Source: Granulicoccus phenolivorans DSM 17626 = NBRC 107789 = JCM 15570
GTDB lineage: Bacteria > Actinomycetota > Actinomycetes > Propionibacteriales > Propionibacteriaceae
Direction of reading: 5' to 3'
DNA: 39,617 nucleotides
Assembly (NCBI RefSeq): GCF_000423085.1
Contig: NZ_AUHH01000043.1
Location: forward strand, 1 to 39,617
Below, piece after piece: positions 2,201 to 38,802 of the stretch (position 1 is its first letter; each line of letters begins with the position of its first letter). Made by a program: the position numbers and the translations under genes. The notes under the pieces were generated by a model that was not told the origin of the DNA, made no database searches, and worked only from the letters and a program-made list of their open reading frames with translations.

Positions 2201-3556
2201 TCAGCCCTGGAACGCCTCGGACTCGGTGAAGGTCTCGGCCGCGGTGTGCTGGCTCTGCCGGGACGCGTGCGAGCGCGACAGGATCACGGCCAGGGCGGAG
2301 ATGAGGAAGGCGATGATGATGTAGATCGCCAGCTTGGTCGTGTCGGAGCTCCCCTTCGGCACGACCAGCCACTGACCCACGATGGGGGCCAGGCCGGCGC
2401 CGAGCACTGAGCCGAGCTGGTAGGTGGCGGAGACGCCGGAGTACCGGGAGCCGGTGTCGAACAATTCGGACAGGTACGCCCCGACCGGGCCGTACATCGA
2501 GGCCTGCATCAGCGGATTACCGACGATGAAGCCCAGCGCGACCAGCCAGAAGTTCCCCGAGTTGAACAGGGCGAACATCGGGAAGACCAACACGATGCAC
2601 AAGGCCGCACCGGCCAGCATGACCTGTTTGCGACCGAACTTGTCCGACAACCACGCGAAGAAGGGGATGGCAAACACGTGGAGCACGTTGCTGGCGGTCA
2701 GCATCAGCAGGGTTTCCGACTGCGTGGCCACGCCGGTGGCGACCACGTGCGGCACCATGAAGGAGGCCAGCAGGCCCTGGATGAACAGCGACGCCATCAC
2801 CGCGAACGAGCCGAGGAAGACCTGGCCCCCGTGCTCCTTGAACAGCTTCGCGATCGGCAGACCGGTGTGCAGCTTGCCCTCGCGGCGCGCCTGTTCGAAC
2901 TCCGGGGACTCGGTGACCCGGGTGCGCATGAACAGGCCGATGATCACGATGACTGCCGACAGCAGGAACGGGATCCGCCAGCCCCAGCTCAGGAACTGAT
3001 CCTGCGGCAGGGTGGAGAACAGCGCCAGAACCAGGGTGGACAGCACCGCGCCGAACGGTGCACCTGCGACCGAGATGGACGCGCCCAGGCCCTTGGAGCC
3101 GGACTTCGAGTGCTCCATCGACATCAACATCGCGCCGGCCCACTCGCCTCCGACGGCGAAGCCCTGGATCACCCGGAGGACGGTCAGCAGAATCGGTGCG
3201 GCCACGCCGATGGTTTGTGCGGTCGGCATCAGGCCGACTGCGATGGAGACCAGACCCATCATCAGCAGGGTGATCACCAGCATGTTCTTGCGCCCGAACT
3301 TGTCCCCGAAATGACCGAACAACATGCCGCCGAGAGGCCGCGCCAGGTAGCCGGTGAACAGGGTCAGGTACGACAGCATCGTCGCGACTCCGGGCTCGAC
3401 GCCCTGGAAGAACAGTTTCGGGAAGACCAGGCCTGCCGCCGCGGCGTACAGCAGGAAATCGTAGTATTCGACCGTGGAGCCGAGAAAGCTCGAGGCAATC
3501 GCGCGTCGGCGTTCGGCGGGTGTGCTGGTGACAGGTTGGCTCGCAGCAGGGGACAT
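2201..3556 (-). CDS. MFS transporter, metabolite:H+ symporter (MHS) family
   Basis: The 451-aa protein has about 12 hydrophobic segments and the MFS loop 2-3 signature GHFGDKFGRKNML. The early motif FLGSTVEYYDFLLYAAAA is characteristic of the metabolite:H+ symporter subfamily (ShiA/ProP/KgtP-like), which imports carboxylic acids with protons. An upstream in-frame ATG adds 15 residues, but the start at 3556 is preferred because AAGGAG precedes it at normal spacing. It is transcribed divergently from the MhpA-like hydroxylase gene, so a phenylpropanoid or other aromatic acid is the likely substrate (inference from context). The shared 267-bp region carries two copies of a 17-bp palindrome and one 14-bp palindrome that could co-regulate both genes. 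Confidence 0.88.
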   Translation of the reverse strand: MSPAASQPVTSTPAERRRAIASSFLGSTVEYYDFLLYAAAAGLVFPKLFFQGVEPGVATMLSYLTLFTGYLARPLGGMLFGHFGDKFGRKNMLVITLLMMGLVSIAVGLMPTAQTIGVAAPILLTVLRVIQGFAVGGEWAGAMLMSMEHSKSGSKGLGASISVAGAPFGAVLSTLVLALFSTLPQDQFLSWGWRIPFLLSAVIVIIGLFMRTRVTESPEFEQARREGKLHTGLPIAKLFKEHGGQVFLGSFAVMASLFIQGLLASFMVPHVVATGVATQSETLLMLTASNVLHVFAIPFFAWLSDKFGRKQVMLAGAALCIVLVFPMFALFNSGNFWLVALGFIVGNPLMQASMYGPVGAYLSELFDTGSRYSGVSATYQLGSVLGAGLAPIVGQWLVVPKGSSDTTKLAIYIIIAFLISALAVILSRSHASRQSQHTAAETFTESEAFQG

Positions 3557-3620
3557 CGAGACTCCTTCGTCGGTGGATGTGGCATCGCACCTGCGGGACA
3601 CGGACCAGTAGTGGTGTACG

Positions 3621-3634
3621 TGTCGGGCCCGACA
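3621..3634. promoter_or_regulatory. 14-bp perfect palindrome in the transporter/hydroxylase divergent region
   Basis: TGTCGGGCCCGACA is a perfect palindrome 65 bp upstream of the transporter start. It may be an operator or a cruciform-forming site. Its sequence is unrelated to the two larger palindromes nearby. Confidence 0.35.
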
Positions 3635-3683
3635 GGTGGCGCTCAGAAGTGTGAGATGTCCGGAATCCCGTCAGCCAGCAGCG

Positions 3684-3725
3684 GTGCCATGATGTGGCAC
3701 GCCCCCCAGTGCCATGATGTGGCAC
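3684..3725. promoter_or_regulatory. Duplicated 17-bp palindromic operator
   Basis: GTGCCATGATGTGGCAC occurs twice without mismatch, at 3684-3700 and 3709-3725. Starts are 25 bp apart. Each copy is an inverted repeat (GTGCCA, 5-bp spacer, TGGCAC). The pair lies in the divergent region between the MHS transporter and the MhpA-like hydroxylase, about 100 bp upstream of the latter. An IclR-family regulator is encoded just downstream of the hydroxylase and is the obvious candidate to bind here (inference). Tandem operators about two to three helical turns apart would suit the dimer-of-dimers binding known for IclR proteins. Confidence 0.6.
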
Positions 3726-3823
3726 CCGCCGTGGTAGCGGAATCGGCGGGGCCGTAGTTTCGTCATTGTTCGGTTCGGTCCGATCTTCCCCTGCACATCA
3801 ACCACCACAACAGGAGAACAGCA

Positions 3824-5554
3824 ATGTCGCTGGACACAGATGTCATCATCGCCGGAGCCGGGCCCGTCGGGCTCGCGCTGGCCAACTTGCTCGGTACTTA
3901 CGGCATCAAGGTCATCCTGGTCGAGGCCCGCTCTGAGTTGATCGACTACCCGCGAGGCGTGGGTATGGACGATGAATCGATGCGCAGCCTGCAGACCATG
4001 AACCTGATCGAGGAGATCACACCGTTCACCATTCCCCACCACGTGATGCGGCTGGTCAATGGGCACGGCGAGGTCATCCTGACCAACGATCCCAAGGGGG
4101 AGCCGTTCGGTTGGCCGCGCAAGCACGGCTTCATCCAGCCCCTGGTGGACAAGGCCATGTACGAGGGCCTGGCTCGCTTCGACGGCATCGATGTCCGGTT
4201 CAACCACCGCCTGACCGGGATCACCGACCACGGCGATCACGTCGAGGTCGACATCCAGATCGGCGGGGGAGCGGACGGGCAGGCCGACCTGGCCGAGTCC
4301 GGGGAAGCAGCGACCGGTTCGACCAAGCTCACCGCGCGCTACCTGGTCGGCACCGAGGGCGGCCGCTCGTTCACCCGTGGCTGGATGGGCGTCACCTTCG
4401 AGGGTCAGTCCCCGTCCACCCGCTGGGTCGTGGTCGACGTCCGCAACGACCCGCTGGGCCTGCCGAACGTGTACCTGGGCGCCGACCCGGCCCGCCCGTA
4501 CGTGTCGATCGGTCTGCCGCACGGGATCCGTCGCTGGGAGTTCATGCTGTTCGACGACGAGCCCTCGGAGAAGGTCGAGGACGACGCCTTCGTGGCCGAA
4601 CTGCTCAAGGAGCACGTCCCGGACTCCTCCAAACTGGACGTCATCCGCCGCCGCGTGTTCACCCACCACGGCCGGATCGCGGGCAACTTCCGCAAGGGCA
4701 ACGTGATGATCGCCGGCGACGCCGCGCACCTGATGCCGGTGTGGATGGGCCAGGGCTGGAACTCCGGCATGCGCGATGCCACCAACCTCGCCTGGAAGCT
4801 GGCCACCGTGCTGCGTGGTGACGCCACCGAGCAGCTGCTGGAGACCTACACCGCCGAGCGGCACGAGCACGCCAAGGCGATGATCGACCTGTCGATGACC
4901 TTCGGCACCATCATCAAGCCGACCGACAAGGTAATCGCCGGCCTCCGCGACGGGCTGTCCAAGGTGCTCAACCTGTCCCCGCAGATCAAGGAATACTTCA
5001 CCGACATGCGGTTCAAGCCGATGCCGCGGTACTCCACCGGCGTGGTCGTCAACGCCGACTCGCTCGAGCCGGGTCGCTCCGACGCCAAGCGGGCCAGCCG
5101 CTTCATGACCGTCCGCAACGCCGTGGACAAGATCACCCCGGTCGGCAAGCAGTTCATTCAGCCGCGGGTGCGCACCGCGCAGCACGACAACGCCCTGCTC
5201 GACGACGTGATCGGTCCGTGGTGGAGCGTGCTGGTCTGGGGCAACGACCCGGCCCTCCTGTTCAACGAGCAGGATCGCCAGACCCTGGACCGACTCGGCT
5301 TCCGGCTGGTCGCCCTGGTCTCGGAGACCCAGCGGGACTGGGCCGAGAAGGAGTACGCCGGGTCCGGGTCGCTGGTCATCGGGGATGTCGACGGCAGCCT
5401 CAAGGGCTGGTTCGACACCCGCGCCTACGGCATGGTCTTCCTGCGACCGGACCGCTTCGTGGCCGCCGCCTGCCTGTCCCAGGTCGGCCCCGAGGCGCTG
5501 CGGGCACTGCTCACCTCGATGAGCGCGTCCCCGGCACTGGCCGCCGTGCGCTGA
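3824..5554 (+). CDS. mhpA: MhpA-like FAD-dependent aromatic monooxygenase (3-(3-hydroxyphenyl)propionate hydroxylase family)
   Basis: This 576-aa group A flavoprotein monooxygenase opens with the FAD-binding VIIAGAGPVGLALANLLG. Later it has GDAAHLMPVWMGQGWNS, the motif that binds the FAD ribityl/phosphate region in this family. The length and the RGVGMDDESMRSLQ segment match MhpA-type enzymes, which use NADH and O2 to ortho-hydroxylate 3-(3-hydroxyphenyl)propionate or 3-hydroxycinnamate before ring cleavage. The C-terminal thioredoxin-like domain is present. A small insertion rich in Gly/Ala/Glu lies near residues 145-165. AGGAG at 3811-3815 supports the ATG. No ring-cleavage dioxygenase is in view, so the exact substrate stays open. 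The neighbouring transporter and IclR regulator support an aromatic-acid catabolic unit. Confidence 0.83.
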   Translation: MSLDTDVIIAGAGPVGLALANLLGTYGIKVILVEARSELIDYPRGVGMDDESMRSLQTMNLIEEITPFTIPHHVMRLVNGHGEVILTNDPKGEPFGWPRKHGFIQPLVDKAMYEGLARFDGIDVRFNHRLTGITDHGDHVEVDIQIGGGADGQADLAESGEAATGSTKLTARYLVGTEGGRSFTRGWMGVTFEGQSPSTRWVVVDVRNDPLGLPNVYLGADPARPYVSIGLPHGIRRWEFMLFDDEPSEKVEDDAFVAELLKEHVPDSSKLDVIRRRVFTHHGRIAGNFRKGNVMIAGDAAHLMPVWMGQGWNSGMRDATNLAWKLATVLRGDATEQLLETYTAERHEHAKAMIDLSMTFGTIIKPTDKVIAGLRDGLSKVLNLSPQIKEYFTDMRFKPMPRYSTGVVVNADSLEPGRSDAKRASRFMTVRNAVDKITPVGKQFIQPRVRTAQHDNALLDDVIGPWWSVLVWGNDPALLFNEQDRQTLDRLGFRLVALVSETQRDWAEKEYAGSGSLVIGDVDGSLKGWFDTRAYGMVFLRPDRFVAAACLSQVGPEALRALLTSMSASPALAAVR

Positions 5555-5570
5555 TCCGACGCCGGATCTG

Positions 5571-5601
5571 ACGGGTCGGTCCCCACGCGGGGCCGGCCCG
5601 T
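5571..5601. terminator. Stem-loop between hydroxylase and IclR genes
   Basis: ACGGG ... CCCC, a 4-nt loop, then GGGG ... CCCGT form an imperfect long stem 16 bp after the hydroxylase stop. There is no U-tract. It probably separates the hydroxylase transcript from the iclR-type gene, which has a TACTAG -10-like hexamer (5601-5606) right after it. Confidence 0.4.
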
Positions 5602-5615
5602 ACTAGCGTCCCCTC

Positions 5616-6398
5616 ATGAGCTCTACCTCGGAGGGGACCGCCCGGCGCACGGCGGTCGACAAGGCCTGCGAACTGCTCTGGGCGGTCGTCGAACGCGACA
5701 TGACCGGCGTCGGGCTGACCGACCTCGGCCGGCGCCTGAACCTGCCGAAATCCACCACCTTCCGACTGCTGAAGACCCTCGTCCGCAACAACGTGCTCGA
5801 ACAGTACGGGGATCACTACCGACTCGGGGGACTGTTCGCCGAGGCTCTGCCGACCGGACCGCAGGTCGAGCTGATCCAGATCGTGCTGACCGGCTACTTG
5901 GCCAAGCTGTACGAGTTGACCCGCTGCACCGTGCAACTGGCCGTGCTCGACGACGCCGATGTGGTGTTCCTCAACAAACTGCACGGCATCCAGCGGTTTC
6001 CGTCCCCCTCCCGGATCGGCGGGCGCGCCCCGGCGCACTGCACCTCGATCGGCAAGGCGATGCTCGCGTTCGACCCGGTCAGCACGGAGAAGGTCTGCGC
6101 CCGCGGACTGGATCAGTGGACCGCGCGGACGAACACCGATCCCGACCGGTTGTGGGCCGAGCTGGCGCGCGTACGCAAGACCCGGATCGCGATCGACGAC
6201 GGGGAATACGTCGATGCGGTCGCCAGCATCGCCGCTCCGATCCTGGTGGACAACACCCCCGTCGCGTCGCTGTGCGTCACCGGGGCCCGGGAGGACATCC
6301 TCGCCGCCGGGTACGAGCCGATCCTGCTCCGGGTCTGTGCCGAGGCGCAGCGGGCCTACCTGGCCCGACTCCGGCCCCCCCAGGTTAGGTCAACCTAA
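5616..6398 (+). CDS. IclR-family transcriptional regulator
   Basis: The 260-aa protein has an N-terminal winged helix-turn-helix (about residues 10-70) with the recognition segment LNLPKSTTFRLLKTL. The C-terminal IclR effector-binding domain contains the conserved HCTSIGKAMLAF stretch and the late ASLCVTGAR strand. IclR proteins bind small aromatic or organic acids and act as repressors or activators. No good Shine-Dalgarno precedes the ATG. A TACTAG -10-like hexamer ends 9 bp before it, so the mRNA may be leaderless (inference). It lies 61 bp after the MhpA-like gene in the same orientation and probably controls that gene and the MHS transporter through the duplicated palindrome at 3684-3725. 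Confidence 0.9.
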   Translation: MSSTSEGTARRTAVDKACELLWAVVERDMTGVGLTDLGRRLNLPKSTTFRLLKTLVRNNVLEQYGDHYRLGGLFAEALPTGPQVELIQIVLTGYLAKLYELTRCTVQLAVLDDADVVFLNKLHGIQRFPSPSRIGGRAPAHCTSIGKAMLAFDPVSTEKVCARGLDQWTARTNTDPDRLWAELARVRKTRIAIDDGEYVDAVASIAAPILVDNTPVASLCVTGAREDILAAGYEPILLRVCAEAQRAYLARLRPPQVRST

Positions 6399-6414
6399 TC
6401 CGGCAGGGTAGACT
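6385..6414 (+). promoter_or_regulatory. TTAGGT/ACCTAA palindrome over a promoter
   Basis: TTAGGTCAACCTAA at 6385-6398 is an inverted repeat with a 2-bp centre and overlaps the stop codon of the IclR gene. A TAGACT -10-like hexamer sits at 6409-6414. A -35 element at 17-bp spacing would fall inside the palindrome, as expected for a repressor site. The TTAGGT half-site resembles half of the DtxR/IdeR iron box, but the spacing is shorter than that consensus, so the regulator is unknown. Confidence 0.45.
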
Positions 6415-6441
6415 CCTCCGGAACAGGTGGGGGGACCAGGT

Positions 6442-6987
6442 TTGCAGGGCTTCGTGAGCGGATTCACCGCGCTGGTGGAGTGGGTGCTCGCGCTGCCCTG
6501 GTACATCGTGATCCCGACGCTGTGGGCCGGCGCCATGCTCCGCTCCAACGCCACGCACTGGCTCGGCCGCGGAACCCGGCACGGTGCCGGCGCGCTGTGG
6601 CGCCGGGTCCGGCCCGGGCGTGGGACCGAAGCCACCCAGCGCCGCCGCCCGCTTGCCGAGCGGTTGGTGCGTACGCTCGGTCCGCTCGCGGTCGTGATCG
6701 GCTTCTTCACCGTGGGCCTGCAGAGCGCGATCATGTTCACCTCCGGCGTCGCCCGGATGCCGCTCAAGCGCTTCGTGCCCGCCACCATGATCGGGTCGCT
6801 GGGGTGGGCCCTGATCTACGCCACGATCGGGATGGCCGCGCTGGAGGCGTTCGTCCTGGCGCTGACCGGTTCCTGGTGGGGAGCGCTGTTGCTGCTCGGC
6901 ATCGTCGCGATCGCGGTGACGGTGCTGCTGCTGGCCGATCGACTGCTGGACCGGTGGCGGCCCCACGAAATCGTGACCGAAGGGTGA
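6442..6987 (+). CDS. Short DedA/VTT-like membrane protein
   Basis: This is a 181-aa integral membrane protein if it starts at TTG 6442, which follows a GGGGGG run at 6429-6434. GTG at 6427 or 6454 are alternatives. The segment FTSGVARMPLKRFVPATMIG, followed by a Trp-rich transmembrane stretch, matches the signature half of DedA/SNARE-associated (VTT) proteins. ATHWLGRGTRHG resembles their GDxxxYxxGRxxG segment. The region before that is shorter than in a normal DedA protein, so this is an N-terminally reduced or divergent member. DedA proteins are linked to undecaprenyl-phosphate or lipid flipping. A palindrome over the promoter suggests specific regulation, perhaps shared with the His-rich membrane protein downstream. 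Confidence 0.6.
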   Translation: MQGFVSGFTALVEWVLALPWYIVIPTLWAGAMLRSNATHWLGRGTRHGAGALWRRVRPGRGTEATQRRRPLAERLVRTLGPLAVVIGFFTVGLQSAIMFTSGVARMPLKRFVPATMIGSLGWALIYATIGMAALEAFVLALTGSWWGALLLLGIVAIAVTVLLLADRLLDRWRPHEIVTEG

Positions 6988-17659: not shown

Positions 17660-17743
17660 ATGCTGAGTGCGCTGCTGGCGCGTCGAAGTCCGGGCAGTGC
17701 GTGTCAGGCATGGATCGGTCATGACCCCGTGCGAGCATTGAGC

Positions 17744-19546
17744 GTGGATACTCTAGATCAGGGAGACTTCGTGCGGGCCTGGGCTGTTCAGCCTCGGCGG
17801 TTCGCATGGCTCCTTGGCGCGGGTGCGAGCGCGTCGGCCGGTTTGCGGACCGCGAACCAGGTCCGCGACGACCTCCTACTGCGGGTGTACGCGGAGCGGC
17901 ACGGGCTCATCCGTCAGAACCTAAACGCTAATGACCCGAACGTCCGTTCGGTGTTGACAGCCTACTTCGACGGCCGCAACGGCATGGTTCCGTTCGGTTC
18001 CGCGGATGATTACTCGTGCGCGTTCAAGCTGGCTCTGCCAGACGAGTCGGCTCGTCGCTCGTACCTGCAAGGCATCTTGAAGGGCTGCCGGCCTAGTTTC
18101 GGTCAGAGGGTCTTCGGAGCGCTGATGACCGCTGGCTTCATCGACATCGTCACCACGACCAACTTCGATGACCTGATCGAGCAAGCGGCAGCCGAGTCCT
18201 ATACGGCCGTCAACGATGTCAGCGATCCACGGCGCCTCTACGTTGCCGCCTTGAACAGTGTCGACCGTGCGCGCCGCATCCTGTCCGCCGAGAGTCACCC
18301 GCTGCTGGTCAAGCTCCATGGCGACTTCCGTGAGTCGTCGCTGAAGAACCTGACCGAAGAGTTGGTCGTGCAAGACCAGGTGCTGCGCCAGTCCGTGCAG
18401 GACGTCAGCAGGAGTGTGGGGCTGGCTGTCGTGGGCTATAGCGGTCGTGACGAGAGCGTCATGGAGATGCTGGAGAGCTCCACACTTCTTGATAGCGCAT
18501 GGCCTGCTGGTCTGTGGTGGTTCACCAGGGAACCAGGTCGGCTGCCCGAACGGGTGCGTCGCCTTTTGGAGATAGCAGCCGAACGCGGGGTCGCCTCCTA
18601 CCTGGTGGCGTTGGAGACCTTCGACGAGCTGATGGCCAGCCTCGTCCTGCAAGCCGAACTCACCGACGATGCCCGCACGTATATCAACGGTCTTCAGTCG
18701 GCGTCACGGGTCGCCGACGCCTCTCCGCCCGTGGCGAGCAAGCGCAGCTACCCGATTATTCGCTACAACGCGCTCCCTGTCTTGGCCGCGCCGACCTCGG
18801 TCCTGCACGCTTCACTGTCCGGCATCGACAACGAGGAGTTCCGCCGACGATCCAAGGAAGCCGGATGGCGCGGAGTCGCCGTCCAAGCCGGCGGAAGCGT
18901 ATGGGGCTGGGGTGACCCCGAGCAGTTGGCGCGCATCGTCGGCACCACCCCCGAGAACGTCGACATCGACCTGCTCAGCGGTGACCTGGAGCCGGGCCTG
19001 CACGCTCTACTCGTCCAAGGCCTGGCCCGGTCGGTCGCATCCTGGCTACCGGCACGAGCCAGAACAACTCGCCGCGACGCTCTGGTGTTGTTGCACGAGT
19101 GGGATGACCTCAGCGAGTCGCGTCAGCTTACTCTTCGCCGCTTCAAGAAGGCCTACGACGGCCAAGTGACCGGCCATCTAGGTAAAGGTCGTGGACAGAA
19201 CCGGCTAGCAGAGCAACGTGCCTGGGCCGAGGCAGCACGCCTCCACGTCGAGTGGCGCTGGGGTGCTCCGTGGATGATTTTTACCCCGTTTACCTGGGTC
19301 GAGCGCCTCGAACGCGACGAGGACGACGATAGTCCGGTTGTGGACCCAGCAGCGGATTGGCGTCGGGAACGCTGGGTGCAACGCAAGCAGAACGAGAAGT
19401 GGGCAAGCATCATCGATGTCTGGGCTACTTCGATCGCGCCACAGCGCAAGGACGTCTCATTGCGCCTTCCCCGTACCTGCGACCCTGACACTTTCGGTGG
19501 TTTCACTCTCGGTGCGTTCTCCGCACATAGTTGGAGGTCAGCATGA
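17744..19546 (+). CDS. SIR2-APAZ effector of a short-Argonaute (SPARSA-type) system
   Basis: This is a 600-aa protein if it starts at GTG 17744; GTG 17771 has a better ribosome site (GGGAGA at 17761) and ATG 17660 is also in frame. The N-terminal SIR2 domain has GAGASASAG (about residues 25-33), TTNFDD (137-142), KLHGD with the catalytic His (189-193) and GYSGRD (230-235), so NAD+ cleavage should be intact. The C-terminal part, from about residue 320, is an APAZ region (YNALPVLAAPTSVLH, then a WGWGDPEQL segment), which stands in for the N/PAZ side of Argonaute. In known SPARSA systems the complex uses a guide to detect plasmid or phage nucleic acid and then depletes NAD+. The stop overlaps the Argonaute start (ATGA, 19543-19546). 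Confidence 0.9.
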   Translation: MDTLDQGDFVRAWAVQPRRFAWLLGAGASASAGLRTANQVRDDLLLRVYAERHGLIRQNLNANDPNVRSVLTAYFDGRNGMVPFGSADDYSCAFKLALPDESARRSYLQGILKGCRPSFGQRVFGALMTAGFIDIVTTTNFDDLIEQAAAESYTAVNDVSDPRRLYVAALNSVDRARRILSAESHPLLVKLHGDFRESSLKNLTEELVVQDQVLRQSVQDVSRSVGLAVVGYSGRDESVMEMLESSTLLDSAWPAGLWWFTREPGRLPERVRRLLEIAAERGVASYLVALETFDELMASLVLQAELTDDARTYINGLQSASRVADASPPVASKRSYPIIRYNALPVLAAPTSVLHASLSGIDNEEFRRRSKEAGWRGVAVQAGGSVWGWGDPEQLARIVGTTPENVDIDLLSGDLEPGLHALLVQGLARSVASWLPARARTTRRDALVLLHEWDDLSESRQLTLRRFKKAYDGQVTGHLGKGRGQNRLAEQRAWAEAARLHVEWRWGAPWMIFTPFTWVERLERDEDDDSPVVDPAADWRRERWVQRKQNEKWASIIDVWATSIAPQRKDVSLRLPRTCDPDTFGGFTLGAFSAHSWRSA

Positions 19547-20961
19547 CCCTCGACTTTGACTCTCGCCAGCCCTGGGCACCGCACACGATTCTTCAGGAAC
19601 CGATGCTGAAGTTTGACAGCAGCCCGACCCCGGCAACCGCGGGTCACCCGCTCGTCGGACTGCTCGACCACGGCCCCTACGCCGGACCGCCGACCGCTAG
19701 CGTGCGACTCGCCACGATCACCCTCAACGGTGACAAGCCGAAGCTCTACGACTTCCTCCGCGGTGCCACCCAGGCACACGAACCCAGCGACCGTCTGGCA
19801 TACGTGCCGCGATATCCGGGGTTCGAGGCGCTGTTCAAGGCCGAGCTTCTTCCTCAGTCCGACGCCCACGTCGACATCCGGAGCGCCGAGATCGGCACCG
19901 GTGCTGACGCGCACGACCGACTCAGCGAGGCGCTTGCCCGTGCGGTGCGGCACCTCCACACCGTTCGCGACTCCTGGGACGTCATCGTCTTCCTACTCCC
20001 TGCAGCCTGGGAGCCTCTGAGGCTCAGCGCCGACGGTGCGCTGGACCTGCACGACCGGTTGAAGGCGACGGCCGCGCTGCTGGGCTGTCCTATCCAGATG
20101 ATCCGCGAGACCTCCGCGCTGCAGTTCAGGTACAAGTGCTCCATGTACTGGCGGCTGTCGATTGCGCTGCTGACGAAGGCTGGCGGCGTGCCGTTCCGGA
20201 TGATGCGTCCCACTGAGTCCGACACTGCCTACCTCGGGCTGGCCTACGCGATTCGCGGCGGGACCGCCAACGAGTTCGTCACCTGCTGCTCGCAGGTCTT
20301 CGACGCCGAAGGCGGCGGCTTCGAATTTATCGCCTACAACGTCGGCGCCGACCGTGACCTGGAGAACCCGCATCTGACCCGCGACGAGATGCGCACCGTC
20401 ATGGCGCGCAGCGCTCGCCTCTACCAGCGGCGCAGGGCCGGGTCTCTGCCCCAGCGGCTTGTGATCCACAAGACGACAACCTGGCGTGAGGAAGAAGTCG
20501 CAGGGGTCTTCGACGCGTGGAGCCCGGCCGTTCCTGACATCGAGTGCCTCCAGGTACGTCTAGACACACCCTGGACCGGGGTTGCCCTCCGCGGCGGCAA
20601 GGGCAACTCGGCGGTCGCCAACGAATGGCCTGTGGGCCGCGGGTCTCTTCAGTATCTCTCTGGGCGGGAGGCACTCCTGTGGATCGCCGGTACGGCGAAG
20701 GGTGTCGCGCTGACGGGTGAGAACTATAATCAGGCAGCCAAGGCTCTACCGACCCCGATTGCGTTCAAGCGTGACGCGGGTGCTGGCCCCCTGGAGATTC
20801 CTGCCAGCGAAATCCTTGCCCTGTCGAAGCTCGACTGGAACAACGACGCCCTTTACGGTGTGACCCCCGTGACTATCTCCTACAGCCAGCGGCTGGCACG
20901 AATCATTAGCAGGGTGCCAGCGCTCCCGGACGACAGCTATCAGTTCCGACTATTCATGTGA
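19543..20961 (+). CDS. Short prokaryotic Argonaute (MID-PIWI), catalytically inactive
   Basis: The 472-aa protein is a MID-PIWI-only Argonaute; GGAGG at 19533-19537 fixes the ATG at 19543. The MID/PIWI junction reads WRLSIALLTKAGGVPF, the conserved guide-5'-end region. PIWI begins with YLGLAYAIRGG (230-240). The C-terminus (DWNNDALYGVTPVTISYS ... FRLFM) is typical of PIWI domains. Positions that hold catalytic Asp in cleaving Argonautes read Ala in YLGLAY and Lys-Thr-Thr in VIHKTTTW (307-314), so target cutting is not expected. This agrees with short pAgos, which sense targets and activate a partner effector. The coupled SIR2-APAZ gene is that partner. Confidence 0.9.
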   Translation: MTLDFDSRQPWAPHTILQEPMLKFDSSPTPATAGHPLVGLLDHGPYAGPPTASVRLATITLNGDKPKLYDFLRGATQAHEPSDRLAYVPRYPGFEALFKAELLPQSDAHVDIRSAEIGTGADAHDRLSEALARAVRHLHTVRDSWDVIVFLLPAAWEPLRLSADGALDLHDRLKATAALLGCPIQMIRETSALQFRYKCSMYWRLSIALLTKAGGVPFRMMRPTESDTAYLGLAYAIRGGTANEFVTCCSQVFDAEGGGFEFIAYNVGADRDLENPHLTRDEMRTVMARSARLYQRRRAGSLPQRLVIHKTTTWREEEVAGVFDAWSPAVPDIECLQVRLDTPWTGVALRGGKGNSAVANEWPVGRGSLQYLSGREALLWIAGTAKGVALTGENYNQAAKALPTPIAFKRDAGAGPLEIPASEILALSKLDWNNDALYGVTPVTISYSQRLARIISRVPALPDDSYQFRLFM

Positions 20962-21107: not shown

Positions 21108-22709
21108 CTATGTCAGGCCAGCGATGTGCTTGGCAGTCGTCGACTTGGCGGTCTTGCCTGCCGCTCGTTTGCTTGGCGGTGGTGGCGCCGACATGACCTC
21201 GATTGTGCGGTAGCGGGCTCTGGTAGTGGCAACGTAGATCTTGCGGTGCGTGTCCTGGGTGACTGAGAGGCCGACGCCGAGGGAGCTGCGTTCGGTGTCG
21301 CTCAAGACGACGCCAACGATGTCCCACTCGCCCCCTTTGGCCTGGTGTGTGGTGAGACCAGGAACTGGGCGGCCGGAGTGGGTCAGACGTGACTGGAGCA
21401 TGGTGAGCCGTTTGGTGTGGGCTGCGTGGGGCGGCCGCAGGTAGCGCGCGGAGACGGCGCCAACAACAGTGACAAGTTGGTTGTATGCGGCCTTGATGGC
21501 CGCGGGTGTGCCGGGCTGGAGCGTCTCGATCACGCCCTGCAACTGGGGTTCAAGTTGCCTCGGTATGTCTCGGTCTTGGATGTTCAGTGCGGCAAGAGCA
21601 TCGCCGAGGTAGGTGGCGTCGAGGTCCAGGATGTTCCGGGTGGCGTGGTTGAGCAGCAGGGTCGCAGCGGCTTCTTCGTACCCGCCTTTGAACGAGTGGT
21701 AGGCGAGGGGGAGGACGCCGCCGCCCACCGCCCAGAGGTCCTTCCAGTACAGCGCGATAGCGACGTCGATGTCGTCGGAATCGATGGGCAGTGTGACTCT
21801 GGCGCCGTTGCGAAGGTTGGTGGCGAGCTCGGCCTGTTCTTCCGATTGCCAGCGGAACGATTGCGTGAGGCGCAGCGTCGGGATGCCGTTCCGATCCAGG
21901 AAGTCGCGCACGACCTGAGGCTTGGCGCCTCGGAAGAGGTAGAGCGCTTGCCAGGGGTCGCCGACAAGGGTAACTGCGACGCCAGCGGCGATGGCCGATT
22001 CGAGGATGGCGATGTCGAGCTCGTTCGCGTCGAAGACCTCGTCGACCACGAGTGCGCGGATCTGCTGTCCGAGGCGCGCCTGAATGCGTGCGGCGCAATT
22101 GGGGCGGTGAAGGGCGTGTTCAAGGATCGTCCGGACATCGTCGTGGGTGCAGATGCCCTGGCGCATGTGCGGCAAGATGCTGACCGCCGGGACACGGTTC
22201 GCGTAGTCCTCCGCGAATGCCGACCTGAACGTCACAGCCTTGCCATTCAGCCCTAGTTCGTAGATGGAACGAGTGGAGGACGTACCGCCGCAAGATGCCC
22301 AGCTGTCGCGGACGTCAAGTTTCACATCGCCGCCGGGCCACAACTTCTTCGCGTCAGGCCACTCGACTAGCTCCTCACGAAGGAGGTCGTGAAAGAGGTC
22401 GGACATGATCGTGTCGAGGGTGACGACTCGGTGGGGCCAGGCGAGAGCTTCCGTACCCCAGAGGCGCTGCACGCGGCGGCGCAGGTTGAACGTGGCCGCA
22501 CGCGTGAAGCTAACGGCGACGACGGCACGTGCGTCGTGCCGGTATCGGGCTGCGAACCTGTGCACACCGAATCGCTGAGCGGAGACAGTCGTCTTCCCTG
22601 TACCGGGGCCAGCTTCGATGAAGATATTCTTCTCACCGGTGGCCGCAGCGTGCCGTTGCTGCGCAGTCAGCGTGTTGATCGCGCCCGCGTGAGCGAGAGC
22701 CCCGGTCAC
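21108..22709 (-). CDS. gajB: GajB-like UvrD-family helicase of a Gabija system
   Basis: The 533-aa SF1A helicase has all the core motifs: [10 protein letters not shown] (32-41), VVDEVFDAN (motif II, about 221-229), [14 protein letters not shown] (motif III), QSFRW (motif IV), [14 protein letters not shown] (motif V) and VATTRAR (motif VI). It is shorter than PcrA/UvrD (about 700 aa or more) and has the VDEVFD variant often found in GajB. Its GTG overlaps the stop of the GajA gene (GTGA, 22706-22709). In Gabija, GajB joins a GajA tetramer; falling nucleotide levels during phage infection release the nuclease. It converges on the Argonaute gene, leaving 146 bp between stops. Confidence 0.88.
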
Positions 22710-24745
22710 GACAGTCCGAAGTCTTTCATGAGTTCGTCGATGTCGACGTCAGCGGGCCCGGTCGTGACGCCCTGGTCTGCCCCGTCGGTTACCGGGCCGT
22801 CCCCCGGTCCCGCATCCTCCGATGTCGAGCCCGAGAAGGGCGGCGACGAGGGGTCGGCGTACAGGAACTCGAAGATGTTCACGTAGGGAGCCGGCACGTG
22901 AACGTCGATGCTTCCTGCGTATCGGGCGTCGCGAAGCCGCCCGGCGAGCGCTTCGGCGAACTCGCCCTTTTTCGATGCGCCTGGCCCGGCCTTGACCGAC
23001 TCGCCGTCTTGCTTGTGCTTGCCGCGGAAGATGTCGCGCACCGCCTCAGGGGTCACTTCGTCGGGCACGTCTAGGCCGATGTCCTGAAGGGCCTGCTTGA
23101 TCTGGTCTTCGTTGAGTTTGGTGAGTTGCGGCTCCAACGTGGGATGGCTGTGTTCGACGAGCAGCACGTCAGGGTCGTGGTCCAGAGCCCAGCTCGGCTG
23201 TTCGGGCGCGTCATCGAAATCCGTGTCGCTGTCTCGGAGGACCGCTAAACGACTGCAGAGCTCATGGTCTCGGGTGGCGAGAAGCCTTACGGCCCAAGGT
23301 CCAACCTTGGTGCCCATCGGAACAATGCTGAGCGCGTCGACAAACGCTTGCTTGTCCTCGTCGTCGCCGGCCCACGCCCATCCAAGCTCACGAAGTACGG
23401 CTGCTTCAGTGACTCCCTCAACGAGCAGAACGCGATTGGCAAACAACGCAGCCGATCGGCTGGCGTCCAGGTGCAACCTCGCCTTCCGTAGAACCTCGTC
23501 TCGTGCCGTGAGTGGAATATCGGCGACAGCCCGCGCGATAGGGCGGCCCAGCTTGTCGTGGCGGATAATGATCAGCTCGGTCGGGTCGCAGGAGGTGATG
23601 ATGTCGGTTGCGTGGCTGGACAGGATGACTTGGAGTTCAGGACGGAGTTCCACCTGACGCCGCAGGTACCGCACCAGCGAGTGCTGCAGCTGCGGGTGCA
23701 GATGGGCCTCGGGCTCCTCAATGAGAAGGGTCACGTGGAACGCACTGTCCGGGAAGAACGAGTCCTCGACACTCTCGCTCTCGGCCCTCGCCTGGGCCAG
23801 AACACGGTCAGCTTCGGCAAGATCCTCCTCAGTTGGCTCGGACGGCGTAACTGCCAGCGGGGCCTCGTCCGGCGCTGGGCCGACGGGGTGACCCCGGGGT
23901 GCCTCTGCGGCAGCTGCTGCTATCTCGGTGGCGTCGGGGATGGCGGCAAGCGTGACCGCTATGTGAAGCAGGTTCACATAGCCAAGGGCAACGATCTCCA
24001 AGGGCAGCGCGCCGACGCGACCCTCGATGGTGGCGAGCATTAGCTCCAGCACTCTAGCCAGGTAGCGGTCATCGACTACCTGACCGCGAATGTAGGCCCA
24101 GTTGCGCGACACGCCGGCCGAGAGAGCCCGGAGCTTGTCGCCCACCCGAGCTTCCAGCCCGTCGAGAACCTCGTGCGTCGCGAGCTGTTCGAGCAGTCGG
24201 GACGCGTGCGCTCGCAGGTCCGACAAATCGCGGCCGCGGCCGCGGTTCTGCTGCTGCGCACGCAGGAGTTCCACCAAGACTCGGGTCTTGCGCCGCGAAA
24301 GCTCATCGAGCGGGTTGCGCCACGCTGGCAGGTGCACGAGCAGGATCTTGTCCTCAACCCCGCTCACGGACGCTGACAGGACTTTGGTCGTTATGCTCCC
24401 CATACTCCGGTGCAAGGTTCGCGCCCAGTCCGCCGCGACTGTACCCGGCACCGAACGGCCGCTCTGTAACTGTAGCTGGAGGCCAAGCGGACCTTCCTTC
24501 GCTGCATCCGCCTCAAACCTGTAGGCCACCTCGATGTCCCGGTCGCCCGGTCCGAGGGCAGCAGCCGAGTGGCGCGGCAAGTGTGGGAACCGCTGTGGGT
24601 GGCCCAAGTACACCGCGTCGCTGAACGTGGTCTTTCCACCACCATTCGCGCCTGCGATCACCGCGAACCGCCCGGGAAGCGACACCTCCAATGGGTGGTC
24701 GACCGAGCCCCGCAAGCCCCGCACTCGCACACGGCTCAAGTACAC
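22706..24745 (-). CDS. gajA: GajA-like OLD-family ATPase-TOPRIM nuclease of a Gabija system
   Basis: The 679-aa protein starts at GTG 24745, supported by GGGAGGG just upstream; an ATG 27 bp earlier is less likely. The N-terminal ABC-type ATPase has the P-loop GANGGGKTT (32-40) and a Walker B/D-loop [12 protein letters not shown] with LSSHATD after it. The C-terminal TOPRIM domain has VLLVEGVTE (439-447) and RDSDTD (504-509), the acidic metal-binding residues. This is the GajA architecture, a sequence-specific DNA endonuclease held off by ATP. An acidic, proline-rich linker lies near residues 280-325. The last 60 residues are low-complexity and Asp/Gly rich, which is unusual. It is the first gene of the gajA-gajB operon. 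Confidence 0.88.
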
Positions 24746-24838
24746 AGAACACCCTCCCGGAACGGGCGGCATCCAACGGCCGCGTCACCACTGATGCGAG
24801 CCTAGCGAAAGTCCACCGGCTCAACCGCTTGAACTGGC

Positions 24839-24903: not shown

Positions 24904-25968
24904 GTGCCTGACGTTGACCGCGCATCGAACCTTGTCCAGGAGACGCTGGACCAGTTTGATGCGCCCGGCATGACGGTCGCTGCGCTCACGCGGCGTTGTC
25001 AGCGGATCGCATCCTTGCGGGGCGATGGTGTGGCGCTCTCCTGGTTGACGATGGAGTCGACTGATGTAGCCAACCAGTTCACGAACCAGTCAGAAGCCTC
25101 ACGAGCCTCGCGTGAGTCCCTGGCGGCGCGCCTGCTCACGACGATCCCAGGCGACGAGGCCAACGCGAAGTGGACTGCGGAATACGACGGCTACATCAGT
25201 CGGCGGCGGACGGAGTCTGGCGCGCAGGAGGCGAACCTTCGCAGCGTTCAACAGATCGAGGAGTTGGCGCAGACGCTGCGGGAGCAGGAGGCTGCGACAC
25301 TCATCTCGCCGCCTCCGGGGATGCACAGCTACGACCTCGGCAAGCACGTGTCCGACCAGGAACGGGCTCGTACGCAGCTTGTCGCATCGCGCATGACGCT
25401 TGAGAATGTGCTTGCCCGCATCAAGGCCCGGCTCTGGGAGTTCTTGACCGAAACCGAGTACGAACTCACGTTCGGCGAGGCTACAGCGGAGACCTTTCAC
25501 CGACTGAGGGCGTACGTCGACAAGCAGCTCACGACGATATCGCCACCGGCTCTTGAGCAATTTCAGACCGCCTACCGGCGGCTGAAGGACGGCGGCGACG
25601 AAGACCGAGCGCACGCCTTGACGTCCTGTCGGCGAGTGCTGAAAACGTTGGCGGACCAGCTCTATCCGGCCAGGTCAGAACCAGTGACGGGCGTCGACGG
25701 GAAGTCCCATCGGCTCGACGATGCGGCGTTTGTGAACCGGCTCTTGCAGTACGTAGCCGAGACGGTCGGCAAGCATGAGAACGGCGCCGTAGTGCAGGCT
25801 GCACTCAAAGATGTCGACGCACGGCTCCGCGCGCTGAACGATCTCGCAAGCAAGGGCGTGCACGGCGACGTGACCACGTACGAAGTCGACACGTGCGTCG
25901 TTCAGACATACCTGGTCGTCGCGGATCTGCTGCGCATCCGTGAACGTGCCGCTCCGACGGGCGACTAG
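24904..25968 (+). CDS. Unrecognised 354-aa island protein with an Abi-like C-terminal segment
   Basis: The protein is soluble and largely helical, with long charged stretches, including a probable coiled coil around residues 95-135 (Gln/Glu/Arg rich). The C-terminal segment LNDLASKGVHGDVTTYEVD, followed by a hydrophobic helix, resembles the C-termini of some abortive-infection-associated proteins of the AbiTii type, but the N-terminal part does not look like a standard AbiTii domain. The start is GTG 24904 with a TAGCCT -10-like hexamer about 6 bp upstream, so it may be leaderless. It is divergent from gajA and lies among defence genes. A role as an accessory or independent defence gene is inference from position only. 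Confidence 0.6.
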   Translation: MPDVDRASNLVQETLDQFDAPGMTVAALTRRCQRIASLRGDGVALSWLTMESTDVANQFTNQSEASRASRESLAARLLTTIPGDEANAKWTAEYDGYISRRRTESGAQEANLRSVQQIEELAQTLREQEAATLISPPPGMHSYDLGKHVSDQERARTQLVASRMTLENVLARIKARLWEFLTETEYELTFGEATAETFHRLRAYVDKQLTTISPPALEQFQTAYRRLKDGGDEDRAHALTSCRRVLKTLADQLYPARSEPVTGVDGKSHRLDDAAFVNRLLQYVAETVGKHENGAVVQAALKDVDARLRALNDLASKGVHGDVTTYEVDTCVVQTYLVVADLLRIRERAAPTGD

Positions 25969-31659: not shown

Positions 31660-31681
31660 TGTCAACTCGACTTGGCCCCAC
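31660..31681. repeat. IS21 left terminal inverted repeat
   Basis: This end reads TGTCAACTCGACTTGGCCCC plus AC. A second, weaker box (TTGGCTCCAC) follows near 31694-31703, as is common in IS21 ends, which carry multiple transposase sites. The istB stop codon (31662-31664) lies inside the repeat. Confidence 0.75.
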
Positions 31682-32459
31682 CATGGCGGCTTGAGTTGGC
31701 TCCACCTGCTCGGGTGTGGGCGAGGCGGTAGCTGGTGGTGCCGGTTTCGATGATGGTGGCGTCGTAGGTGAGTCGGTCGACGATCGCGGCGCAGAGGCGG
31801 GGGTCGGTGAAGGTTTTGGTCCAGCCGCTGAAGGGTTCGTTGGAGGCGATCGCGATGGCGGTCTTCTCTTCGCGTTCGGTGAGGACCTGGAACAGGAGTT
31901 CGGCGCCGCGCCGGTCGAGTTGGAGGTAGCCCAATTCGTCGAGGCAGAGCAGGTCGACCCGGCCGTAGCGGGCGATGACTTTGGTGAGGGCACGGTCGTT
32001 CTCGGCTTCGGCGAGCTCGTTCACGAGCCGGGACGCCAGCACGTAGCGGACCCGGTAGCCGTGCTCGGCGGCGGCGGTCCCGATCCCGATGAGCAGGTGG
32101 GTTTTGCCGGTTCCGGAGTCGCCGATCAGGCACAGCGGTCGGCCTTTGGCGACCCAGTCGCCGGCGGCCAGGGTGTTGATCACCGCGGGGTTCAGGTTCG
32201 GGTTGGCGTCGTAGTCGATCTCGTCGAGGCGTTTGGGTCGGGGGAAGCCGGCGTCGTGGACCCGGCGGGCTCGGCGGCGTTCGTCGCGGTCGTCGCACTC
32301 GGCGAGCAGGAGTTCGGCCAGGAAGCCTTGGTAGGTGTGCTGCTCACGGGCTGCGGTCGCTGCTGCTTGGGCGGCTCGTTCGCGGATGGTCGGCAGGCGC
32401 AGGGTGCGGCAGGCGGTGTCGATCGCGACCTCGACGGCTTGGGTGGTCATGGTGGTCAT
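31662..32459 (-). CDS. istB: IstB, IS21 helper ATPase
   Basis: The 265-aa AAA+ ATPase is related to DnaC. IGDSGTGKTHLLIGIG is the Walker A loop, LLCLDELGYL is Walker B, and IASNEPFSGWTKTF followed by AIVDRLTYD is the sensor/arginine-finger region typical of IstB. It assembles on DNA and directs the IstA transposase to target sites. The ATG overlaps the istA stop (ATGA, 32456-32459). The stop codon is within the left inverted repeat and 20 bp before the start of the helicase gene in the same direction, so transcripts can read through into it. Full length; no lesion seen. Confidence 0.95.
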   Translation of the reverse strand: MTTMTTQAVEVAIDTACRTLRLPTIRERAAQAAATAAREQHTYQGFLAELLLAECDDRDERRRARRVHDAGFPRPKRLDEIDYDANPNLNPAVINTLAAGDWVAKGRPLCLIGDSGTGKTHLLIGIGTAAAEHGYRVRYVLASRLVNELAEAENDRALTKVIARYGRVDLLCLDELGYLQLDRRGAELLFQVLTEREEKTAIAIASNEPFSGWTKTFTDPRLCAAIVDRLTYDATIIETGTTSYRLAHTRAGGANSSRHGGAKSS

Positions 32460-34036
32460 GTGGGGGTTCCTCCGGTGAGCAGGGTGTCGTAGGCGTCGAC
32501 GCTGGGCAGGGGCCTGGTGTCGGTCGGGTAGGTGACCTGACCGTCGGCGCCGACCAGGCCGAGTTGGGGCCGGGTTTCGCCGGCGCGGCGGACCTCGACG
32601 GCGACCGCTTCCGGGGACAGCGCCCCCACCTGGAGTGCGGCCTCGAGGCCGGCCAGGACCTGGCTGTGGGGATAGCTGCGGTGCAGCAGCAGCGCCTCGA
32701 CCAAGGCCTGGGTGCCGGCCTTGTCGCCGTAGCGGGCCTTGGTCGCGCTCCAGTACCGCTCGTGGACCGCGGTGAACGCTCCGCTCTTGCGGGCCTGGAC
32801 CAGGGCGGTCGCCCCGGGCAGTGCCCCGGGCTTATAGGCCAGCACCTCCAAGTAGTGATCCAGCACCAAGGTCACCGAGCCGCGGATCGTGGCCCGTTCA
32901 TGCTCGGCGACCAGCCTGGGCCCGTCGTAGATGAGCACCACGGTGGCGCGGAGCAGCACCCGCAGCTGGCGGCCGACGTAGCGGACCGGCACCGAGTACT
33001 GGCATTGCCGCACCGTCACGCGGGCGTGCCGGTCGACCCGAGGCCGCAGGCTGATCCCGGTCTCGAACGGCTCAACCGGCAAAGGCCGCAGCAGCGGCTG
33101 CTCGACAGCGAAGTCGTCACCCACGGTCTTGGTTCGTTGCCCGACCCGCCGGTGATCATCCTTGGCGTCGCACTTGGCGAGGTAGGCGTTCAGCTCGGCC
33201 AACGTCTCGACCTTGGGCATCGGGACGGTGTGGGTGCGGCGGAAGCGGCCACCCTCACCCTCGACGCCGCCCTTCTCGTGGGCTCCTTCGACACCGGGCC
33301 GGCAGTAGAACACGTCGAAGCCGTAGTGGGAACGGAACAGCACCCACCGGTCCGACTCGACCCGGGTCCGGCCCGTCAACACCCGCGACACCGCCGCCTT
33401 CAGGTTGTCGTAGCGGATGTGAACGATCGGGATCCCACCGAGCTGCTCGAACGCGTACCGGTGGCCGTCCAGGAACGCCTCCTGCGAACACGTCGCATAC
33501 GCGCGGTGGATCGCCTTGCCCGAGTAGGACAGCCGTAGCGTGAACAAGAACACCTTGGTCTTCACCCCAGCCCACACGATCCACAGATCGGCGAAGTCGA
33601 CCTCGGCCTCCGCCCCGGCCGGATGGGTTTGCGGCACGAACACCTCGGACAACTGCTTCCCAGCCTCGGCGGCGATCCGGACCCTGGCGTCCCGCACATA
33701 GTCCCGGACAGTGGAATAGGCGACCTCGACCTGGTGCTCATCGAGGAGCCGTTCCCGGACCCGCAACGCGGTGTGACGCTGCTTGCGTGGCGCGTCCAGA
33801 TCCTGCCGGAGCATCGCGTCGATCAACGGCTTCACCGGGTCCAACACCGGCGCAGTCCGGACCGGCACCTTCCGCGGCGGCGGCTCCGCCGACGCCAACG
33901 CTTGCCGGACCGTGCGACGGTGCACACCATGCCGTACCGCCAACTCGCGGATCGACACATCCGGATCATCCCGCCGGTCCCGACGGATCGCTTCAAACAC
34001 CCTGACACGACTCCCAACAGACACCCCGCACCCCAA
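32456..34036 (-). CDS. istA: IstA, IS21-family DDE transposase
   Basis: The 526-aa transposase has an N-terminal HTH (VSIRELAVRHGVHRRTVRQAL) and an rve integrase core. The DDE triad can be read as Asp in AEVDFADLWI, Asp in VHIRYDNLKAAV and Glu in GAHEKGGVEGEGG. The C-terminal beta-barrel region QCQYSVPVRYVG is present. It is full length for the family. With IstB it catalyses cut-and-paste or circle-mediated transposition. The gene starts about 100 bp from the right end of the element, where three repeat boxes are found. Confidence 0.95.
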   Translation of the reverse strand: MGCGVSVGSRVRVFEAIRRDRRDDPDVSIRELAVRHGVHRRTVRQALASAEPPPRKVPVRTAPVLDPVKPLIDAMLRQDLDAPRKQRHTALRVRERLLDEHQVEVAYSTVRDYVRDARVRIAAEAGKQLSEVFVPQTHPAGAEAEVDFADLWIVWAGVKTKVFLFTLRLSYSGKAIHRAYATCSQEAFLDGHRYAFEQLGGIPIVHIRYDNLKAAVSRVLTGRTRVESDRWVLFRSHYGFDVFYCRPGVEGAHEKGGVEGEGGRFRRTHTVPMPKVETLAELNAYLAKCDAKDDHRRVGQRTKTVGDDFAVEQPLLRPLPVEPFETGISLRPRVDRHARVTVRQCQYSVPVRYVGRQLRVLLRATVVLIYDGPRLVAEHERATIRGSVTLVLDHYLEVLAYKPGALPGATALVQARKSGAFTAVHERYWSATKARYGDKAGTQALVEALLLHRSYPHSQVLAGLEAALQVGALSPEAVAVEVRRAGETRPQLGLVGADGQVTYPTDTRPLPSVDAYDTLLTGGTPT

Positions 34037-34066
34037 CCCTTCGACGACAACATCGACCAGCGTGAG

Positions 34067-34156
34067 GTGGGGCCAGATCAGACCGTCACAACCACCCCGG
34101 AGTGTCGAACCCGGGGCCAGATCAGGCCGTCACGGTGGGGCCAAATCAGAGTGTCA
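34067..34156. repeat. Three repeat boxes at the IS21 right end
   Basis: Related boxes of the form GGGGCCA(G/A)ATCAG followed by (C/T)GTCA within a few bases occur at 34067-34088, 34109-34132 and 34135-34156. The outermost is the terminal inverted repeat. Multiple internal boxes are known transposase-binding sites in IS21-type ends and could also influence istAB transcription. Confidence 0.7.
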
Positions 34157-34394
34157 TTTCCATCCCCTCCCTACGCGGAAATGGAGCGCTCCGTGGTTGC
34201 GCGCCGACATAAGTGTCTCATCGGAAGCTCGCTAGGTGAGCAGAAGGGCATGGACTGAGCCATGGACGCAGGAGGTGGCACCCGATCGGTGGTGACAACC
34301 TAGGGCGGGCACCCTACGAGGACCCGATGGAGCCTGGGTGCTGCGGCCCTAGGCCGATGCTCCGACGCCACGGGCTGCCCGTTCTGACGGACGC

Positions 34395-34423
34395 CTGGCC
34401 AATGCGACACTGACCCTGGCCAG
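34395..34423. terminator. Weak stem-loop after the GNAT-like gene
   Basis: CTGGCC and GGCCAG arms enclose a 17-nt loop, just beyond the stop of the GNAT-like gene. The remaining gap from the IS21 end (34157-34394) shows no supported gene; it may hold leftovers of the sequence that originally lay upstream of the helicase gene, including a GGGAGGGG run on the minus strand at the IS border. Confidence 0.3.
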
Positions 34424-34430
34424 CTACGGC

Positions 34431-38503: not shown

Positions 38504-38802
38504 GCCCACCTCCCGGTCCTGCCGGGCAGGTGAGCGCCAGCCTCCTGTGACTTCTGCTGCCACAGGGCCCTAGACCTCGACCTGCAAGAGGCGTGTCAGC
38601 TCAGAAAAGGCAGGGTGTGGCGGAGCTTCCTGAGTGCGGGCTGTCGTGAATGGACGTTGCTGGTCGATGGACTGGATGGCACTGGGCCGGCGACCGCGAG
38701 GACAGGTCAGCACGACGTAGTGGTGCACCTGACAGGTGACCAGCCCGGCGACACGACTCACGCGAGTTCTGGCCGGGGATCATCCCGTCAGCCGGAGCAT
38801 TC
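38504..38802. other. Non-coding region between divergent relaxase and methyltransferase genes; oriT candidate
   Basis: About 300 bp without a believable gene. It holds the relaxase ribosome site and the inverted repeats CCTGTG/CACAGG (38544-38549, 38561-38566) and CACCTG-A-CAGGTG (38726-38738). It also has a direct repeat GACAGGT at 38701 and 38731, 30 bp apart. MobF origins of transfer usually lie just upstream of the relaxase gene and carry such repeats, so this is the best oriT candidate (inference). It should also contain the promoters for both genes. Confidence 0.45.

Follow-up and report, generated by a model that had tools for sequence, protein, structure and literature searches.

A duplicated 17-bp site between a transporter gene and an mhpA-like gene is the probable operator of a neighboring IclR-family regulator

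The window (the whole 39,617-base stretch of DNA that was analyzed) carries two identical 17-bp sites in the divergent region between a transporter gene and an mhpA-like hydroxylase gene. Together, these sites very probably form a tandem operator of the IclR-family protein encoded at 5616-6398, which would set the transcription of both the transporter gene and mhpA. We consider this reading, predicted from sequence comparison, very probable because other bacteria carry the site next to these three genes as well. The features concerned are the following.

2201..3556, minus strand: MFS transporter gene, metabolite:H+ symporter type (PF07690; NCBIfam TIGR00883, 374.5 bits, below the cut-off of 443.45)
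3557..3823, no strand: divergent control region between transporter and hydroxylase, 267 bp
3684..3700, no strand: predicted operator site A, GTGCCATGATGTGGCAC; centered at -132 from the mhpA ATG and 136 bp upstream of the transporter ATG at 3556
3709..3725, no strand: predicted operator site B, identical to A; centered at -107 from the mhpA ATG and 161 bp upstream of the transporter ATG
3824..5554, plus strand: gene for an MhpA-like FAD hydroxylase (3-(3-hydroxyphenyl)propionate/3-hydroxycinnamate hydroxylase family; PF01494; NCBIfam NF004828, 740 bits, cut-off 853)
5571..5601, plus strand: hairpin between the mhpA stop and the iclR start, 13-bp stem and 5-nt loop
5616..6398, plus strand: gene for an IclR-family regulator, the proposed binder of sites A and B (PF09339 and PF01614)

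A scan of the window for the 17-mer GTGCCATGATGTGGCAC returned exact matches at 3684-3700 and 3709-3725 and, across all 39,617 bases, no further match with up to 3 mismatches. Dinucleotide shuffles of the window contained a mean of 0.20 such matches, and two were reached in 1 of 100 shuffles. The preliminary description had reported a duplicated 17-bp site between transporter and hydroxylase, and both copies were indeed exact. Its spacing of 25 bp was correct from start to start and from center to center; the gap itself is 8 bp. It had also called the site a palindrome. The copies are inverted repeats whose 6-bp arms (GTGCCA/TGGCAC) flank an asymmetric center, TGATG, so that the full 17 bp are not perfectly palindromic. 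The divergent setting with an IclR gene nearby was likewise as described, with the MFS transporter on the minus strand, mhpA running from 3824 and the IclR gene at 5616-6398. No sigma-70-type promoter match was found in the promoter scan of 3400-3900.

The transporter start was taken as the ATG at 3556 because AAGGAG precedes it; the longest frame begins at a GTG at 3601. Against the aromatic acid/H+ symporter model the transporter scored 65.9 bits (cut-off 418.55). It may carry aromatic compounds, as its earlier label of aromatic transporter assumed; its best model is that of a general metabolite/H+ symporter, at a score below the cut-off. The hydroxylase scored 530.6 bits against NF004831 (cut-off 546). 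In the regulator, both the IclR helix-turn-helix domain (PF09339, 40 bits) and the C-terminal ligand domain (PF01614, 96.4 bits) were above cut-off; a second Pfam scan of this protein yielded nothing further. Solved-structure searches returned only remote relatives of the hydroxylase and the regulator. The iclR gene starts 61 bp after mhpA, and the RNA of this gap (5550-5620) folds to -37.1 kcal/mol (z -2.98). Promoter and terminator scans of 5450-6500 found nothing, and no T-run terminator was called at the 5571-5601 hairpin in that range. The hairpin is a possible terminator or attenuator, and it may separate iclR expression from that of mhpA.

The scan for hydroxylase relatives yielded 40 loci. 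Five of them keep the MFS, IclR and hydroxylase genes together, namely a Propionibacteriaceae MAG (L011) and four loci of Janibacter (L013, L014, L015 and L048). Their IclR proteins are 47-50% identical to that of the window, and in all five iclR lies between the transporter and hydroxylase genes. The palindrome was present in 5/5. In the Janibacter loci, iclR and mhpA are each preceded by one copy; L011 has a 1-mismatch copy before mhpA and a weaker, 3-mismatch copy, GTTCCACTGGGTGGACC, before iclR. Across the window and the 40 hydroxylase loci (557,591 bases), the site occurred 11 times with up to 1 mismatch, always in these control regions. With up to 2 mismatches there were 16 matches; four Paeniglutamicibacter loci account for the five additional ones, of which L038:3208 is the only one that does not lie upstream of mhpA.

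When the six control regions were resampled with a first-order Markov model, 300 runs yielded 0.007 matches on average and at most 1. The best match to GTGCCAN5TGGCAC in the 300 bp upstream of mhpA had 0-1 mismatch in 6/6 loci (the window, L011, L013, L014, L015 and L048), and in each of these six none of 200 resamplings was as good. When aligned, the control regions shared little apart from the site and the ribosome-binding region.

The consensus GTGCCACN3GTGGCAC was fixed before a held-out search for IclR orthologs. This search covered the family of L015 (the Janibacter family; 186 genomes, 10 with a match), the window's order (391 genomes, 15 with a match), its class (394 genomes, 6 with a match) and its family (198 genomes, 3 with a match); thresholds differed, genome sets overlapped and a subset of the candidates in each genome (6 to 14) was scored. 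Four new three-gene loci were found, three in the Janibacter-family search (L076, L078 and L079) and one in the window's family (L084). That family is probably Propionibacteriaceae, as the match of one member, G937, is on the contig number of L011. Both sites were present in 4/4, with 0 or 1 mismatch. Thus, the site occurred in all 10 loci found with a window-type IclR, an MFS gene and mhpA, that is, the window and nine others: two from the window's family, four named Janibacter and three further loci from the Janibacter-family search. Duplicate loci were not counted (L073, L074, L075 and L077, from the genomes of L048, L014, L015 and L013; L101, with the coordinates and score of L077; L118, with the contig number of L011; and L001-L003, L083 and L117, equal to the window). 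The usual arrangement in the nine was one copy before iclR and the divergent transporter gene and one before mhpA. In L078, iclR and mhpA are separated by an IS5 transposase gene (L110), and the site remains beside mhpA.

Among the matches listed for relatives' genomes at up to 1 mismatch, those at the locus were 1/1 in G057, 2/2 in G058, 2/2 in G060, 2/3 in G059 and 2/6 in G061. The extra match in G059 (L114) lies between two convergent genes, is accompanied at a distance of 23 bp by a copy with 2 mismatches, and is more like a terminator. Because only two of the six listed G061 matches are at the locus, the four others may be further targets or chance matches. One exact GTGCCACN3GTGGCAC in G061 (L115, 2553-2569) falls within the predicted reading frame of a regulator and is distant from the mhpA locus.

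The regulators were collected with an iterated profile (33 rows in 32 loci besides the window), as a single-sequence search missed distant IclR proteins. The tree was built from 32 of 34 rows, after fragments of up to 150 residues (L022 and L046) had been dropped. The window IclR grouped with the five regulators whose loci carry the same motif (clade support 96/96), and the helix residues KST-FRL were identical in all six. A window-type IclR was unseen in 35 of the 40 hydroxylase loci, some of which are cut by contig ends, and in none of these 35 was a site with up to 1 mismatch found anywhere in the locus. The site was absent from L012, where the hydroxylase is 73% identical and no IclR was found; the loci of the distant IclR proteins L080-L082 lacked both the three-gene set and the site. 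The preliminary description had proposed a specific operator of the nearby IclR, and this prediction is well supported by the presence of the site in 10/10 three-gene loci and its absence, at up to 1 mismatch, from the 35 loci with no window-type IclR in view.

The site is characteristic of the window IclR type, yet not confined to it, because Paeniglutamicibacter loci with an IclR of another clade also scored 0-1. In five such loci (L033, L034, L035, L037 and L038; ~5859-5882), GTGCCA-type palindromes lie 135-142 bp upstream of mhpA, with 0-1 mismatch to the arms; 0 or 1 of 200 resamplings was as good. These palindromes at the same place suggest that the site predates, or extends beyond, the window clade. 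In Raineyella (L016), whose only IclR is remote (36% identical to that of the window), the arms are matched with 2 mismatches at 89 bp upstream of mhpA; 9 of 200 resamplings did as well, and we treated this match as chance.

HppR-type loci of Actinobacteria, such as that of Rhodococcus globerulus (L030), likewise have an IclR gene, hppR, near an mhpA homolog. The 23 regulators of this type form a clade (100/99) separate from the window IclR, and outside Paeniglutamicibacter none of their loci had a match with up to 2 arm mismatches in the 300 bp upstream of mhpA. An imperfect palindrome (GTGCAACTAACGGTCAC, GTGCAACTACCGATCAC) was seen 93-133 bp upstream of mhpA in L024, L026 and L032 (Rhodococcus/Prescottella and Gordonia). 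It resembled the present arms no better than chance, L024 and L032 are close kin, and it is perhaps an HppR operator.

Among the alternatives, the one that survives best, although we judge it improbable, is that the sites are operators of another regulator, most plausibly the paralogous IclR of the window's own genome (C2:135640-136389). The neighbors of this paralog resemble lower meta-cleavage genes. In one related genus (g22), IclR proteins of the paralog group have GTGCCACNNTGCGGCAC just upstream (L085, L087 and L091; L088, of the same genus, has a 2-mismatch match), and in L091 the site lies between the paralog-type IclR gene and a divergent MFS gene whose product is 56% identical to that of the window. 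However, the paralog's own locus on C2 has no match with up to 3 mismatches. The window-type IclR has the site in 10/10 loci, whereas at up to 1 mismatch it was present in 3/20 and 0/3 of the paralog and distant-IclR loci, the three positive loci (L085, L087 and L091) all belonging to that one genus. L097 has a 2-mismatch match ~1.3 kb away.

A role of the repeats at the RNA level, as hairpins of a terminator, attenuator or mRNA element, rather than as protein-binding DNA is far less probable. A 6-bp hairpin is possible in either copy, and for the two together the predicted fold has -31.4 kcal/mol (z -1.98), a weak excess of stability that 6 of 200 shuffles equaled. Yet it is the arm sequence, not merely its pairing, that is conserved: across 20 sites with 7 pairs each there were 1 double change, 4 broken pairs and 3 G-T pairs. 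We reject this as the main reading because the arms do not covary; in addition, the terminator scan of 3400-3900 found no T-run terminator, and the two copies in relatives precede different genes. Chance, or a recent meaningless local duplication, is the least probable reading: the copies are identical even in the center, which varies in relatives, as after a copy event, but nine other loci have the site ahead of the same genes, which refutes this reading for the site itself, and resampled sequence hardly ever yields it.

The assembly searched comprised 4,117,723 bases in 74 contigs (98.46% complete), the window being contig C41. GTGCCAN5TGGCAC occurred in it only at sites A and B, as did the consensus GTGCCACN3GTGGCAC with up to 1 mismatch. 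The exact 17-mer had six further matches with up to 3 mismatches, each with 2 or 3. At up to 2 mismatches the consensus had 21 matches, compared with 27 for the reversed-pattern control. The suggestion that the motif defines a regulon elsewhere was therefore not upheld: only two sites come within 1 mismatch, the reversed pattern is matched no less often, and nothing points to a dispersed motif-defined regulon in this genome. When a pair pattern (gap 1-30) was searched in the 391 genomes of the order, the window's own was the only one to carry it.

Other probable pathway genes of the genome lie on other contigs. An MhpB homolog is encoded on C36, not on C41, and is 58% identical to the MhpB of L013, whose gene (3-carboxyethylcatechol 2,3-dioxygenase; 450 bits, cut-off 291) follows mhpA. 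Judged by sequence, the genes on C36 resemble a row of transporter, second flavin hydroxylase, mhpB, hydrolase and GntR-like regulator. One 2-mismatch match of the genome scan falls inside the mhpB homolog on C36 and looks like chance. On C2 (L107, 3730-6572), the paralogous IclR gene is flanked by a 2-oxopentenoate hydratase-like gene (below cut-offs) and a gene for acetaldehyde dehydrogenase (421.6 bits, cut-off 282.25). Upstream of other probable pathway genes (stretches L107 and L113), nothing matched within 3 mismatches. L106 (G443) has a gene for a hydrolase of the BphD/HsaD type (242.6 and 229.7 bits, below cut-offs), which adjoins a frame with an mhpB-like start. The gene set fits meta cleavage of the hydroxyphenylpropionate type without proving that substrate; the hydroxylase and the transporter score below the named-function cut-offs. 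3-(3-Hydroxyphenyl)propionate would be a candidate ligand of the IclR protein.

In the 20 aligned sites of the 10 loci (the weak L011 site included), the arm positions were nearly invariant and the 3-bp center varied. Arm pairs 4/14 and 5/13 were invariant, and the other pairs varied in 1 or 2 sites. Positions 3/15 were G/C in 19/20 sites; the L011 site before iclR has T/A. The published group 1 operators of the IclR family, with the consensus GKTYCRYW3-4RYGRAMC (Suvorova and Gelfand 2021, PMC8222616), are likewise 17-bp palindromes with a 3-bp center. Counted by hand against that consensus, the window site fits at 12/14 arm positions and 2/3 center positions. Both arm misfits are the symmetric pair 3/15, which is T/A in group 1, the form also seen in the L011 iclR site, and G/C here.

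According to the same source (PMC8222616), tandem sites are common in the IclR family, many members of which control aromatic catabolism and transport. Tandem sites in 94 orthologous groups have 18-22 bp between centers, compared with 25 bp in the window, and distances of approximately three and four turns are likewise over-represented (PMC8222616). The system of MhpR in E. coli shares with the window an IclR-family regulator, a 17-bp palindromic site and an MhpA-family hydroxylase, but its operator, GGTGCACCTGGTGCACA as given in Table 1 of PMC8222616, differs in sequence from the window site. It also differs in that the window has no mhpB or mhpC beside mhpA. Among the papers listed by full-text literature searches, whose scope left out most subscription papers, none described this motif or an operator of the window IclR subgroup.

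The comparisons show that the site is conserved, where it lies, that it is specific and that it goes with this IclR ortholog; from them we infer binding by the IclR protein, its oligomeric state and its ligand as follows. One dimer would occupy each 17-bp site, and two adjacent dimers may associate into a tetramer of the kind reported for the family. Bound within the divergent region, near its middle, the regulator would set leftward transcription of the transporter gene and rightward transcription of mhpA, in response to an aromatic acid that would be a substrate or product of the MhpA-like hydroxylase. One dimer per palindrome and ligand-dependent control of both genes follow from established knowledge of the family together with the conservation of the site. 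For mhpA we lean slightly toward ligand-dependent activation, because the sites lie 99-140 bp upstream of the start codon and IclR activators of similar pathways exist; these include MhpR, PcaU and PobR.

Site positions in relatives were measured from start codons of our choosing. Centers on the mhpA side were at -81 (L011), -86 (L013), -74 (L014), -73 (L015) and -73 (L048) from the mhpA start, which would suit activation from upstream or repression. On the iclR side they were at -22 (L011), -50 (L013), -76 (L014), -18 (L015) and -18 (L048) from the iclR start. Autorepression of iclR is likely in the relatives with a center at -18 to -22, positions close enough to the iclR start to suit it.

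Unlike its relatives, the window has its two sites in a single region and its iclR gene on the 3' side of mhpA, where iclR lies behind the strong hairpin and has no site of its own. In the nine other loci the two sites are ~780-2000 bp apart and not tandem, and among the ten loci only the window has the same 17-mer twice. The 25-bp spacing corresponds to ~2.4 turns and places the sites ~137 degrees apart on the helix. This spacing, the hairpin and the lack of a separate iclR site count against the IclR reading. One tentative account, to which we give rather low credence, is that of a compacted shared operator: iclR would have moved from between the transporter gene and mhpA to the 3' side of mhpA, turning two promoter sites into one tandem pair 2.4 turns apart, and two dimers on different faces would each serve one divergent promoter, without a side-by-side tetramer. 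The window copies are identical including the center, and their flanks have no similarity visible by eye; a precise short duplication is one possible origin.

As a gene switch, the predicted operator is solid but of an ordinary kind, with a modest oddity of arrangement and spacing, and it leaves the understanding of the IclR family unchanged. For this actinobacterial IclR subgroup it supplies an operator sequence that can be tested and ten loci that can be compared, and it is a natural example of an operator pair that is arranged differently where the regulator gene lies elsewhere. The pair could also serve as a candidate part for sensing aromatic acids.

The remainder of the contig carries genes of other kinds. 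At 17660-20961, a SIR2-domain protein gene is followed by a short prokaryotic Argonaute gene (padloc, 478.6 and 551.7 bits), which looks like a short-pAgo defense pair of the SIR2-APAZ type. Genes for a UvrD-type helicase and an OLD-like ATPase/TOPRIM protein at 21108-24772 resemble Gabija (GajB/GajA) in partial matches (120.7 and 146.7 bits), and a weakly AbiTii-like gene adjoins them at 24904-25968. An IS21-type IstB gene, a Mu-type transposase gene and a gene for a TrwC-type relaxase with a helicase domain (31662-38563) give the right part of the contig the look of a mobile island. A short C5-cytosine methyltransferase frame at 38803-39303 matches positions 2-117 of a 324-position model and is apparently truncated.
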